A stretch of DNA of 64,000 bases, from assembly GCA_946699065.1 (NCBI GenBank), contig CAMPDV010000293.1, positions 62,001 to 126,000 of the forward strand, given 5' to 3'. Position 1 is the stretch's first letter. The number at the start of each line of letters is the position of its first letter. The notes under the pieces were generated by a model. The model searched no databases. It was not told where the DNA came from and was given only the letters and a program-made list of their open reading frames with translations. This stretch comes from Loxodes magnus. Lineage: Eukaryota; Ciliophora; Karyorelictea; Loxodida; Loxodidae. Both the position numbers and the translations under genes were made by a program. Of the stretch, positions 4,519 to 64,000 are shown piece by piece.

Positions 4519-4521
4519 CTA
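4519..4521 (-). other. First in-frame TAG after the WD40 array (candidate stop)
   Basis: The last WD40 unit breaks off after CKT and continues as FCFLIYVF before this TAG. If any of the three codons can terminate near a transcript end, as described for Condylostoma, this is the first candidate. Identical TAG codons occur inside the array and must be read through there as Gln. Confidence 0.4.
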
Positions 4522-6117
4522 AAAAACGTAGATGAGAAAACAAAAGGTCTTACAGGTACCTGTCTTGACGTCCCATAGTCTCACCGTATAATCTGCACTT
4601 CCCGATACGATGAACTCTGAATCACTGGATATAGCCACAGCATATACATGACTAGTGTGACCACTCATGGTCTTACAGGTACCTGTCTTGACGTCCCATA
4701 GTCTCACCGTATAATCTGCACTTCCCGATACGATGAACTCTGAATCACTGGATATAGCCACAGCATATACTCAATGTGTGTGACCACTCATGGTCTTACA
4801 GGTACCTGTCTTGACGTCCCATAGTCTCACCGTATTATCTCTACTTCCCGATACGATGAACTCTGAATCACTGGATATTGCCAAAGATCATACTCAATCT
4901 GTGTGACCACTCATGGTCTTACAGGTACCTGTCTTGACGTCCCATAGTCTCACCGTATTATCTCTACTTCCCGATACGATGAACTCTGAATCACTGGATA
5001 TAGCCACAGCATATACTCAATCTGTGTGACCACTCATGGTCTTACAGGTACCTGTCTTGACGTCCCATAGTCTCACCGTATAATCTGCACTTCCCGATAC
5101 GATGAACTCTGAATCACTGGATATAGCCACAGCATATAAATGACTAGTGTGACCACTCATGGTCTTACAGGTACCTGTCTTGACGTCCCATAGTCTCACC
5201 GTATAATCATGACTTCCCGATACGATGAACTCTGAATCACTGGATATAGCCACAGCATATACATGACTAGTGTGACCACTCATGGTCTTACAGGTACCTG
5301 TCTTGACGTCCCATAGTCTCACCGTATAATCTGCACTTCCCGATACGATGAACTCTGAATCACTGGATATAGCCACAGCATATAAATGACTAGTGTGACC
5401 ACTCATGGTCTTACAGGTACCTGTCTTGACGTCCCATAGTCTCACCGTATAATCTGCACTTCCCGATACGATGAACTCTGAATCACTGGATATAGCCACA
5501 GATCATACATGACTAGTGTGACCACTCATGGTCTTACAGGTACCTGTCTTGACGTCCCATAGTCTCACCGTATAATCATGACTTCCCGATACGATGAACT
5601 CTGAATCACTGGATATAGCCACAGCATATACATGACTAGTGTGACCACTCATGGTCTTACAGGTACCTGTCTTGACGTCCCATAGTCTCACCGTATAATC
5701 ATGACTTCCCGATACGATGAACTCTGAATCACTGGATATAGCCACAGATCATACAGAACTAGTGTGACCACTCATGGTCTTACAGGTACCTGTCTTGACG
5801 TCCCATAGTCTCACCGTATAATCATTACTTCCCGATACGATGAACTCTGAATCACTGGATATAGCCACAGCATATACATGACTAGTGTGACCACTCATGG
5901 TCTTACAGGTACCTGTCTTGACGTCCCATAGTCTCACCGTATAATCATGACTTCCCGATACGATGAACTCTGAATCACTGGATATAGCCACAGCATATAC
6001 ATGACTAGTGTGACCACTCATGGTCTTACAGGTACCTGTCTTGACGTCCCATAGTCTCACCGTATAATCTGCACTTCCCGATACGATGAACTCTGAATCA
6101 CTGGATATAGCCACAGA
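4519..6117 (-). CDS. WD40 frame segment 1 (C-terminal end, 13 repeats)
   Basis: This is the last block of the array before its end. It is in one frame when TGA is read as Trp and TAG/TAA as Gln. Two units carry TGA after GHT-H or GHT-D (near 4771 and 4892), giving GHTHWVYAV and GHTDWVWSL, the best WD40-internal evidence that TGA is Trp. The upstream join at 6116-6124 has one extra base, so this block is out of frame with the next one unless the insertion is an error or is bypassed. Confidence 0.6.
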
Positions 6118-63100: not shown

Positions 63101-64000
63101 TGACGTCCCATAGTCTCACCGTAGAATCATGACTTCCCGATACGATGAACTCTGAATCACTGGATATAGCCACAGCTTATACATAACTAGTGTGACCACT
63201 CATGGTCTTACAGGTACCTGTCTTGACGTTCCATAGTCTCACCGTAGAATCATGACTTCCCGATACGATGAACTCTGAATCACTGGATATAGCCACAGAT
63301 GATACATAACTAGTGTGACCACTCATGGTCTTACAGGTACCTGTCTTGAATCCCATAGTCTCACCGTCTAATCACAACTTCCCGATACGATGAACTCTGA
63401 ATCACTGGATATAGCCACAGCTTATACATAACTAGTGTGACCACTCATGGTCTTACAGGTACCTGTCTTGACGTCCCATAGTCTCACCGTCTAATCACAA
63501 CTTCCCGATACGATGAACTCTGAATCACTGGATATAGCCACAGATGATACATAACTAGTGTGACCACTCATGGTCTTACAGGTACCTGTCTTGACGTCCC
63601 ATAGTCTCACCGTCTTATCTCAACTTCCCGATACGATGAACTCTGAATCACTGGATATAGCCACAGCAAATACAGAACTAGTGTGACCACTCATGGTCTT
63701 ACAGGTACCTGTCTTGGCGTTCCATAGTCTCACCGTCTAATCTCAACTTCCCGATACGATGAACTCTGAATCACTGGATATAGCCACAGCTTATACCTAA
63801 CTAGTGTGACCACTCATGGTCTTACAGGTACCTGTCTTGACGTCCCATAGTCTCACCGTAGAATCATGACTTCCCGATACGATGAACTCTGAATCACTGG
63901 ATATATCCACAGATGATACCTAACTAGTGTGACCACTCATGGTCTTACAGGTACCTGTCTTGACGTCCCATAGTCTCACCGTAGAATCATGACTTCCCGA
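4519..64000 (-). CDS. Giant WD40-repeat protein, C-terminal part, about 483 repeats, start beyond the window
   Basis: The whole stretch translates on the minus strand as head-to-tail 41-residue WD40 repeats, with segments [14 protein letters not shown], a variable D-x-[20 protein letters not shown], then a variable pair and V-x-x. The WD40 hallmarks (GH dipeptide, conserved Asp, terminal WD) are all present. WD40 repeats fold as four-stranded blades of beta-propellers, usually seven per ring, and act as protein-binding scaffolds; about 483 blades would make about 69 rings. In-frame TAA, TAG and TGA occur every one to nine units at positions where Gln or Trp fit, so the standard code fragments it falsely. 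Small indels break the frame at 6.1, 6.7, 22.6 and 25.4 kb and repeatedly beyond 58.2 kb. No other domain, signal peptide or start is visible. It may instead be partly pseudogene or a coding-derived satellite. The repeat family is certain; expression as one protein is not. Confidence 0.65.
6116..6124 (-). other. One-base insertion in a linker (frameshift)
   Basis: GATATATAC replaces GATCATAC, adding one base and shifting the frame between WD40 units. An identical change lies at 6732-6740. Confidence 0.85.
6118..6732 (-). CDS. WD40 frame segment 2 (five repeats between two one-base insertions)
   Basis: Five WD40 units lie between two copies of the same one-base insertion (GATATATAC for GATCATAC, at 6116-6124 and 6732-6740). 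The two sites are 616 bases apart, that is five units plus one base, so the insertion was duplicated with its neighbours. Each insertion turns the linker into SVYICGYIQ before the frame would be lost. Confidence 0.5.
6732..6740 (-). other. Second copy of the one-base linker insertion
   Basis: This is the same change as at 6116-6124, 616 bases away (five units plus one base). The surrounding units match too, so it was copied, not an independent event. Confidence 0.85.
6733..22568 (-). CDS. WD40 frame segment 3 (about 129 repeats, 15.8 kb in one frame)
   Basis: About 15.8 kb stays in one frame under the recoded table, with no net indel. Linkers here are mostly VYAVAIS, with VWSVAIS (W=TGA) interspersed. 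Window B types such as GSADYT, VSNDYT, GSRDNT, GSHDYT, ASEDYT and ASGNKT alternate. Repeats with RLRD in place of RLWD first appear near 16.87 kb. The segment contains the 13-unit and 20-unit duplications. Confidence 0.65.
8207..9560 (-). repeat. Higher-order repeat, 13-unit spacing, first copy
   Basis: Eleven consecutive units match those at 9806-11159 in order and variant type, at an offset of 1599 bases (13 x 123). One visible difference is GSGNKT here versus ASGNKT in the second copy. Confidence 0.85.
9806..11159 (-). repeat. Higher-order repeat, 13-unit spacing, second copy
   Basis: This matches 8207-9560. Its six-unit run at 10056-10790 occurs a third time at 12516-13250 with the same order of variants. 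Confidence 0.85.
10056..12269 (-). repeat. Higher-order repeat, 20-unit spacing, first copy
   Basis: About 18 units recur at 12516-14729, offset 2460 (20 x 123). The copies differ at a few points: the unit near 10800/13260, and TCATTACTTCCC versus TCATAACTTCCC near 11730/14190. Confidence 0.85.
12516..14729 (-). repeat. Higher-order repeat, 20-unit spacing, second copy
   Basis: This is the second copy of the 18-unit block at 10056-12269, with the same order of variant types and only isolated base differences. Confidence 0.85.
20140..22920 (-). repeat. Higher-order repeat, 23-unit spacing, first copy
   Basis: The block recurs at 22967-25747, offset 2827, which is 23 x 123 minus 2. The two missing bases are the deletion at 22567-22577, present in both copies, so the deletion came before the duplication. 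Confidence 0.88.
22567..22577 (-). other. Two-base deletion within the DSEF core (frameshift)
   Basis: ACGATAAACTG stands where other units read ACGATGAACTCTG. Two bases are missing, so DSEFIV becomes DSVYR and the frame is lost. Confidence 0.9.
22571..25395 (-). CDS. WD40 frame segment 4 (23 repeats between two copied 2-bp deletions)
   Basis: Twenty-three units lie between two identical two-base deletions (CGATAAACTGAATC for CGATGAACTCTGAATC, at 22567-22577 and 25394-25404). The block is one half of a 23-unit duplication. Its frame differs from both neighbours. With both deletions real, a continuous protein through all three segments is not possible without frameshifting. Confidence 0.5.
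22967..25747 (-). repeat. Higher-order repeat, 23-unit spacing, second copy
   Basis: This is the second copy, carrying the same two-base deletion at 25394-25404. The copies differ near 22924/25751 (GCACTTCC versus TCACTTCC). Confidence 0.88.
25394..25404 (-). other. Second copy of the two-base deletion
   Basis: This is identical to 22567-22577 and lies 2827 bases away within the 23-unit duplication. Confidence 0.9.
25398..58192 (-). CDS. WD40 frame segment 5 (about 267 repeats, 32.8 kb in one frame)
   Basis: This is the longest uninterrupted frame, about 10,930 codons of WD40 repeats with no net indel, read with TGA=Trp and TAA/TAG=Gln. From about 35.4 kb on, nearly every second or third linker is VWSVAIS (Trp=TGA) and window B is dominated by GSGDYT, ASGDYT, GSYDKT and ASGNKT. 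Left of that, VYAVAIS linkers and SHV pairs dominate. Many units between 35 and 57 kb read RLRD instead of RLWD. Keeping frame over such a length in a repeat able to accept indels argues for selection on coding. Confidence 0.68.
32760..33290 (-). repeat. Higher-order repeat, 14-unit spacing, first copy
   Basis: A run including the uncommon pair HY (near 32937) recurs 1722 bases on (14 x 123), with the same neighbours GSYDKT, VSNDYT, VSNDYT, GSADYT, GSNDYT. Confidence 0.75.
34482..35012 (-). repeat. Higher-order repeat, 14-unit spacing, second copy
   Basis: This is the second copy of the run at 32760-33290, again marked by HY (near 34659). Confidence 0.75.
44270..48058 (-). repeat. Higher-order repeat, 45-unit spacing, first copy
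   Basis: About 31 units recur at 49805-53593, offset 5535 (45 x 123), including rare markers: GHADYV (near 44871/50409), GHTISV (near 45240/50775) and the silent GTA-to-GTG change (CCCGACACG). One unit near 47150-47270 differs between the copies. Parts also recur at 20-unit spacing (45722-46725 and 48182-49185). Confidence 0.85.
49805..53593 (-). repeat. Higher-order repeat, 45-unit spacing, second copy
   Basis: This is the second copy of 44270-48058. The segment 52979-53480 also matches 47444-47945 (45 units) and 43139-43640 (80 units), so several rounds of exchange overlap here. Confidence 0.85.
58193..63354 (-). other. Ten copies of a -1 change, GACGTC to GATTC
   Basis: On the plus strand GAATCCC replaces GACGTCCC at 58193, 58684, 58929, 59297, 59665, 60033, 60401, 60523, 62857 and 63348. 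Each removes one base in the WDVK segment, turning LWDVKTG into LWDSRQV. The change is absent from the rest of the array. Spacings of one, two, three or four units show it spread with the repeats. Confidence 0.9.
60964..60978 (-). other. One-base deletion in a linker (GATGATAAGAATCAG)
   Basis: The linker is one base short compared with GATGATACCTAACTAG. The same form recurs at about 62070-62084, each time preceded by the variant GCTACAG. Both shift the frame. Confidence 0.8.

Follow-up and report, generated by a model that had tools for sequence, protein, structure and literature searches.

Results

A WD40-derived tandem array in Loxodes magnus

The DNA analyzed here is a 64,000-bp stretch of the karyorelict ciliate Loxodes magnus (contig CAMPDV010000293.1, positions 62,001 to 126,000), referred to as the window; from position 4546 to its right end it is filled by a tandem array of 123-bp units, each corresponding to one blade of a WD40 propeller. 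Contigs are denoted by C-numbers (the contig of the window is C293), and loci or pieces that were read by L-numbers. The following features were annotated in the window.

4546–64000, minus strand: 123-bp WD40-derived array, very probably satellite DNA (Tandem Repeats Finder, unit extraction and sampled pieces; the array runs from C293:66,546)
43418–44278, minus strand: seven units taken for the structure model (seven-blade propeller; predicted local distance difference test, pLDDT, 95.3; predicted template modeling score, pTM, 0.92)
4519–4546, minus strand: abrupt edge at the 3' end of the array in the sense direction; the final unit stops after ...GGTACCTGTAAGACC, followed by AT-rich non-repeat DNA
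58081–63481, minus strand: cluster of identical −1 units (GGGACGTCAAG -> GGGATTCAAG), 10 copies in the window
22538–25486, minus strand: a pair of identical 121-bp (−2) units at a distance of 2,827 bp, borne by a duplicated block of 23 units
6054–6794, minus strand: two identical 124-bp (+1) units (unit extraction)
60902–62130, minus strand: two 122-bp units that represent a second kind of −1 change (unit extraction)
25487–58080, minus strand: longest frame-intact stretch of the window, ~265 units (unit extraction)
1–4518: AT-rich flanking DNA whose minus strand bears a degenerate remnant resembling a reverse transcriptase (YADD-type motif around 3340–3420, by eye)

Tandem Repeats Finder returned one row only for the window, with a period of 123 bp, 483.5 copies and 94% matches. 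Translated on the minus strand under genetic code table 27 (TAA and TAG as Gln, TGA as Trp), the unit is a WD40 blade of 41 residues. A slice of seven units matches PF00400 at 8.5e-76, and the nearest neighbors of its structure model in the Protein Data Bank are the WD40 domain of PkwA, a highly repetitive propeller and designed symmetric propellers. An initial annotation of the window had described a long WD40 array at 4519–64000; the array and its blades are genuine, and its start was placed too early, by 27 bp. The reading frame is open only with TGA as Trp. Translations under table 1 and table 6, in which TGA is a stop, met frequent stops and were dropped for table 27, which is preferred because TGA occupies the Trp position of WD40 blades both in arrays and in genes. 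The array also continues past the right edge of the window, as had been expected: all six pieces read on C293 between 126,001 and the contig end at 386,592 (L010–L014 and L016, 52 kb in total, the DNA between them being unread) consist of the 123-bp repeat, and the array on C293 measures at least 320 kb if the unread parts are array as well. The initial annotation had suggested looking for a gene start and an N-terminal domain just right of the window, where every piece read is array.

Frame breaks, local duplication and edges

The array had been called uninterrupted, which is imprecise: 16 units in the window are 121, 122 or 124 bp long, so that there is no single continuous reading frame. 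Some of these units occur in multiple copies. The −1 variant that forms the cluster at 58081–63481 is present 14 times in exact form in the genome, always within the same 21 kb (C293:120,172–141,346), and the frame-breaking change was therefore multiplied together with neighboring units. Blocks are duplicated locally within the array, in which the best local lags are mostly 12–33 units, with ~16–40% of units recurring at these lags; the recurrence is weaker in 3 of 13 blocks, and no fixed higher-order period was found in the array. Frame breaks are also present in the arrays on two other contigs, six over 87 units on C6 and four over 146 units on C4, as judged from the spacing among the exact matches listed. 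The monomers are homogenized while carrying local variants private to an array.

The edges of the arrays are abrupt. At the window edge there are no diverged C-terminal blades of the kind found after the central blades in 19 of 20 sampled genes of the family described below (the twentieth is masked there). The sense-5' edges of the arrays on C4 (L017) and C6 (L095) begin in the middle of a blade with unrelated DNA outside, and neither a RING/pentapeptide part nor a gene start was found at these two edges. Neither start nor end of a gene is thus joined to the array at the 3' edge in the window or at the 5' edges on C4 and C6, the 5' end of the C293 array being unseen. Codons 5–8 of the unit, ACA-GGT-ACC-TGT, form a very uniform block and at the same time a perfect palindrome of 12 bp. 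The array on C6 starts inside this palindrome (L095:2814), and the window array ends six bases past it.

Copy number and spread in the genome

Exact matches to two different 37-bp core blocks of the unit were counted over 705,730,643 bases in 7,843 contigs. The first block gave 343,825 matches (185,806 + 158,019) and the second 340,355 (151,105 + 189,250); these counts are far beyond chance, because the reversed control patterns of both blocks gave 0 matches. The array is therefore not a unique locus. At one unit per match, the satellite amounts to at least 42.3 Mb, or 6.0% of the 705.73-Mb assembly. The exact core block is present in 609 of ~939 sampled units (mostly from C293), and scaling by this fraction suggests ~530,000 units and ~65 Mb for the whole satellite. 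Very many head-to-tail copies in long arrays are found on several contigs, with C4, C6 and C5500 in addition to C293. Among 16 other contigs sampled by number at positions 1,001–3,000, one (C5500) lies in the 123-bp satellite and seven lie in other tandem repeats.

According to excerpts of the published description of the L. magnus genome (PMC11441545), the 706-Mbp macronuclear (MAC) assembly was made from HiFi reads, the genetic code is table 27, and 231 Mbp of the assembly are low-complexity tandem repeats. Neither "wd40" nor "satellite" occurs anywhere in the main text of that paper, and among the open-access titles and opening parts of abstracts listed there was neither a WD40-derived satellite nor a WD40 expansion in ciliates.

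Several further sequences were noted beside these arrays. L015, L020, L022–L025, L027 and L031 are filled by different tandem repeats, whose units measure 80, 93, 100, 103/104, 240 and 372 bp, and several of these seem by eye to have a AAGTGAAGAAG-like motif in common. Isolated islands of one to three units lie outside recognizable genes or arrays at L003 (C2) and L005 (C3), one of them adjoining a retroelement-like remnant. The YADD motif of a degenerate retroelement is visible by eye in L003 as well as at 3340–3420 of the window (minus strand). In the AT-rich left flank of the window, Pfam gave no family above the cut-off in nine frames; a GC-richer block of ~380 bp at 2010–2400, seen by eye, is possibly a short interspersed nuclear element, and Rfam gave 0 matches on the window. 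On C4, at L017:800–2100 (C4:2,223,800–2,225,100), a diverged WD40 stretch (3.2e-07) comes after a protein kinase domain (PF07714, 4.3e-22); this region lies several hundred bp upstream of the array of 123-bp units that starts at L017:2725.

A gene family with satellite-type blades

Blades of the same type are found in a large gene family whose members carry a RING-like finger, a Q-rich middle, pentapeptide repeats and a WD40 propeller with satellite-type central blades. One member, L009, lies on the minus strand 10 kb left of the array, with its start codon at C293:56,558, and reads MDSNQCPNCEEQF... Its N-terminus has eight Cys/His residues in what we take to be RING-like spacing, judged by the general RING pattern, and the Pfam match to zf-RING_2 (E = 0.036) is below the cut-off. 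Its pentapeptide repeats match PF00805 at 3.9e-10, and the central blades of its propeller are the satellite unit, with diverged blades on both sides. In the N-terminal 516 residues of L009, Pfam detected the pentapeptide repeats and the weak RING, and no NACHT.

A genome search with the N-terminal part of L009 yielded 2,489 candidates and, from these, at least 150 scored matches; with the pentapeptide-WD40 stretch of another member the figures were 2,117 and at least 150. Pairs of matches with equal scores are probably haplotype copies. All eight Cys/His residues are kept in 20 of the 20 best N-terminal loci of the at least 150 matches, a set that includes the query's own locus (L035) and several apparent near-duplicates, which biases this conservation upward. 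The frame continues into the pentapeptide part in all 20, and the satellite-type blade motif is present in 16, within the short part of the propeller that was reached. The propellers were sampled at 20 loci hand-picked, and so non-random, across the ranks of the 150 best pentapeptide-WD40 matches; L001, L003, L005, L006 and L009, which are likewise non-random, came from the first pattern search or lie beside the window. Each of the 20 propeller loci has one to three blades with at most four core mismatches from the array unit. Adding L001, L006 and L009 to the 20 gives 23 gene loci with 67 blades, in which the partly masked L092 and L079, with its frameshifts, are retained. The core is perfect in 23 of the 67 blades, a high internal conservation of blades of the kind that characterizes the fungal HNWD genes.

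A GT-AG intron of 28–41 bp follows the propeller at the same site and restores the frame into a TDWNKVYADYG-like exon in 19 of the 23 gene loci (16 of the 20 sampled, plus L001, L006 and L009); no such intron was seen in L079, L084 or L089, nor in the masked L092. Differences in intron size among L009, L001, L006 and L075–L094 are not in every case divisible by three. By these sequence features the family members look like real, spliced genes, and their products are probably RING-type ligases or, failing that, RING-like proteins. The family hits are concentrated near contig ends, with 23 of 33 within 50 kb against ~3.5 expected (hits on contigs numbered up to C150, with 21 contig sizes known and the other nine set to 650,000). 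Of 20 contig starts that were read, half (10) consist of tandem repeats over their whole length, and a telomere-like repeat is absent from all 20. The position of the genes fits a subtelomeric as well as a satellite-flanked location.

Variable codons and selection

To describe variation within the unit, codons are numbered from 0, starting at CTA-TGG. The 891 sampled array units comprise 861 from C293, 15 from C4 and 15 from C5500. Their variation falls mainly on codons 16, 17, 19, 20, 33, 35 and 37 and on the mostly synonymous codon 15; the diversity per site is 0.312 over these eight codons and 0.014 elsewhere. All eight were taken as the variable set for diversity and for the counts of alleles and core variants, and the seven without codon 15 for the ratio of non-synonymous to synonymous polymorphism (pN/pS). 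When the seven codons picked from the array were pooled over 49 blades of the 20 genes by a counting method, pN/pS was 2.96 (bootstrap over genes, 2.25–4.43), compared with 0.50 (0.32–0.74) for the remaining codons. The five codons with the most non-synonymous difference, 16, 17, 19, 35 and 37, are identical in genes and array. In the seven-unit model, codon 17 lies in the loop ahead of the first strand of the blade and codon 19 at the start of that strand, and codons 35 and 37 lie in the turn between the second and third strands. Diversifying selection thus acts on about seven codons of the genes, most of which face the top surface of the propeller, and this surface probably recognizes fast-changing partners, to judge from the pattern of codon change.

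In the array, alleles seen once account for 3 of 47 opportunities at variable codons and 21 of 291 in the core (P = 1.0, with the eight codons as variable), and with the limit raised to five copies the changes are 11 of 47 and 44 of 291 (P = 0.24). Mutations arising in the array thus show no clear preference for the variable codons. Among array codons at the seven places, 93–100% by weight also occur among the 67 gene blades. The diversity of the array is most likely inherited, a fossil rather than a live process. Among the sampled genes, the blades of L009 are closest to the C293 array, with Hamming distances of 1, 0 and 1, whereas those of other genes are mostly at 3–8; this closeness would fit a local founding of the array.

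Discussion

Probable satellite DNA derived from gene blades

We consider it very likely that the array is satellite DNA derived from the variable WD40 blades of a large gene family, and not one giant gene, because of the copy number, the amplification of frame-breaking units, the breaks in the C4 and C6 arrays, the abrupt edges without a gene start and the missing C-terminal blades. To judge indirectly by the frame breaks and the abrupt edges, the arrays are most likely not translated. As to the direction, we infer that it went from gene to satellite, since the genes have a complete domain structure and an intron, the array edges are abrupt, and the blades of L009 are, among the sampled genes, the closest to the array.

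The observations from which an origin can be proposed are the copy number, the shared unit, the frame breaks, the abrupt edges, the variable codons common to genes and arrays, and the selection in the genes; the mechanism of exchange and the recognition role of the genes are what we infer. In the proposed sequence of events, the 123-bp monomer would have begun as one propeller blade of the RING-like/Q-rich/pentapeptide/WD40 family. Near-identical blades lying in frame would permit frequent unequal exchange, which may keep the cores alike and shuffle the variable codons. Blocks of blades would then have left the genes and grown by local tandem duplication into long arrays. Released from the need to close a propeller, exchange could expand such blocks without limit, and the arrays would keep the hypervariable codons of their founders, gain frameshifts and copy these along. 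The arrays may serve some purpose, be it in heterochromatin, at centromeres or as a store of blades, or none at all.

Several observations weigh against this reading. About 265 consecutive units, from 25,487 to 58,080, are frame-intact, and two 10-kb samples (L011 and L014) have no frame break; one of the 20 genes (L079) itself has frameshifts within its propeller. The far (5') end of the C293 array is unassembled, and a gene start is possible there. The array sample is dominated by one contig, with 861 of 891 units from C293. The core is more uniform in the array than in the genes (0.014 vs. 0.025–0.050 per site), and the diversity at the variable codons of the array (0.312) is almost that of the genes (0.334–0.339). 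The ratio from the count of synonymous and non-synonymous core variants is 0.77 in arrays (P = 0.38) and 0.66 in genes (P = 0.09), without a significant difference between them (P = 0.72, Fisher's exact test); this count does not separate arrays from genes and is no proof of neutrality. Similarly, the frequency-weighted core pN/pS of 0.32 in the array fits inheritance from the genes and would fit constraint too.

Among the alternatives, it is conceivable but improbable that the arrays are a working bank of blades, whose units are copied by gene conversion into the RING-WD40 genes and refresh their recognition repertoire. The variable codons are largely common to the pools of gene and array, L009 and L001 each share one identical unit with the sampled array units, and the genes lie near contig ends, half of which, among the starts read, begin in tandem repeats (10 of 20). 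However, of 66 gene types no more than 7 also occur among the 219 array types, most gene blades are 3–8 bases away from the nearest sampled array unit, and new array alleles are not focused on the variable codons. The figures on sharing are weak either way, with 891 units sampled out of several hundred thousand. A donor role of the arrays is no more than a possibility. In its boldest form, to which we likewise give little credence, hundreds to thousands of RING-WD40 recognition proteins would have their variable blades replenished by gene conversion from ~500,000 satellite spares; if this were true, satellite DNA would serve a single-celled eukaryote as the germline library for a repertoire of adaptive-like character.

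It is also unlikely that the great length of the array is an artefact, produced when Falcon merged reads of many shorter arrays. Excerpts of PMC11441545 have its authors blaming misassembled low-complexity repeats for the gap between two assembly sizes, and such repeats make up a large quantity of the assembly (231 Mbp of 706 Mbp). Nevertheless, the reads were HiFi, private variants are clustered as in a true local array (every one of the 14 copies of the −1 variant lies in the same 21 kb), and misassembly would alter the length of the array and the order of its units, not the existence of the units.

Least tenable of all is the single giant protein of at least 19,800 residues proposed by the initial annotation (more than 100,000 if array fills the contig to its end), to which the lack of an obligatory stop under table 27, the ~265 frame-intact units, the propeller model of the seven-unit slice and the variable codons at the binding face would lend some support, but which is very hard to reconcile with ~340,000 copies across the genome, 16 frame-breaking units in the window, some copied with their neighbors, the missing C-terminal blades at the window edge and the missing gene start at two other array edges (L017 and L095), while an open frame is nearly uninformative under this code. 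The alternative offered with it, a repeat-generating locus from which shorter products are made, is no more than a possibility. What survives of that proposal is the link to recognition, which is plausible for the source genes, since these show diversifying selection at top-face codons; a giant recognition protein does not survive.

Comparison with known systems

The closest parallel to the source genes is in the HNWD (NACHT-WD40) genes of Podospora anserina (het-d, het-e and het-r), which act in allorecognition and whose blades, according to excerpts of PMC1805685 and PMC2873952, are near-identical through concerted evolution and are under positive selection that is strongest at codons 7, 9, 25 and 27, in the d-a loop and the b-c turn. 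The Loxodes pairs 17/19 and 35/37 have the same spacing (0, 2, 18, 20), each pair flanks a conserved residue in both systems, and the placement of the codons in the model is much as described for HET-E in those excerpts. Positive selection at pairs of top-face codons is thus found in the Loxodes source genes as in HNWD genes. Unlike HNWD proteins, the Loxodes proteins have a RING-like finger and pentapeptide repeats at the N-terminus instead of HET-NACHT, a blade of 41 rather than 42 residues, and few uniform blades within a propeller with diverged end blades. The Loxodes search gave at least 150 matches compared with 10 HNWD members, and in Loxodes the blades have escaped into a satellite.

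COP1 and TRAF7 are ubiquitin ligases composed of RING, coiled coil and WD40, and are few and slowly evolving. The Loxodes proteins share their order of parts, from a zinc finger through a long middle to a WD40 propeller, but belong to a large, diversifying family with pentapeptide repeats, and their ligase activity is putative. The human D4Z4/DUX4 repeat is a macrosatellite derived from coding sequence. Both there and in Loxodes the tandem unit includes protein-coding sequence; however, the D4Z4 unit holds a whole gene, whereas the Loxodes unit corresponds to just one structural repeat within a protein domain and is in frame on its own.

Significance

These results identify some of the tandem repeats that make up 231 Mbp of the L. 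magnus assembly according to its authors, and uncover a large, diversifying RING-WD40 family in a karyorelict ciliate, with top-face codons that evolve like those of fungal allorecognition receptors. Two questions now become testable, namely how recognition repeats that evolve in concert can expand out of control into a satellite, and whether ciliates have recognition of a repertoire type. If the satellite reading is right, as we think very likely, a protein domain repeat has become a bulk component of the genome, and its selective past is still legible as hypervariable codons in an otherwise uniform monomer.

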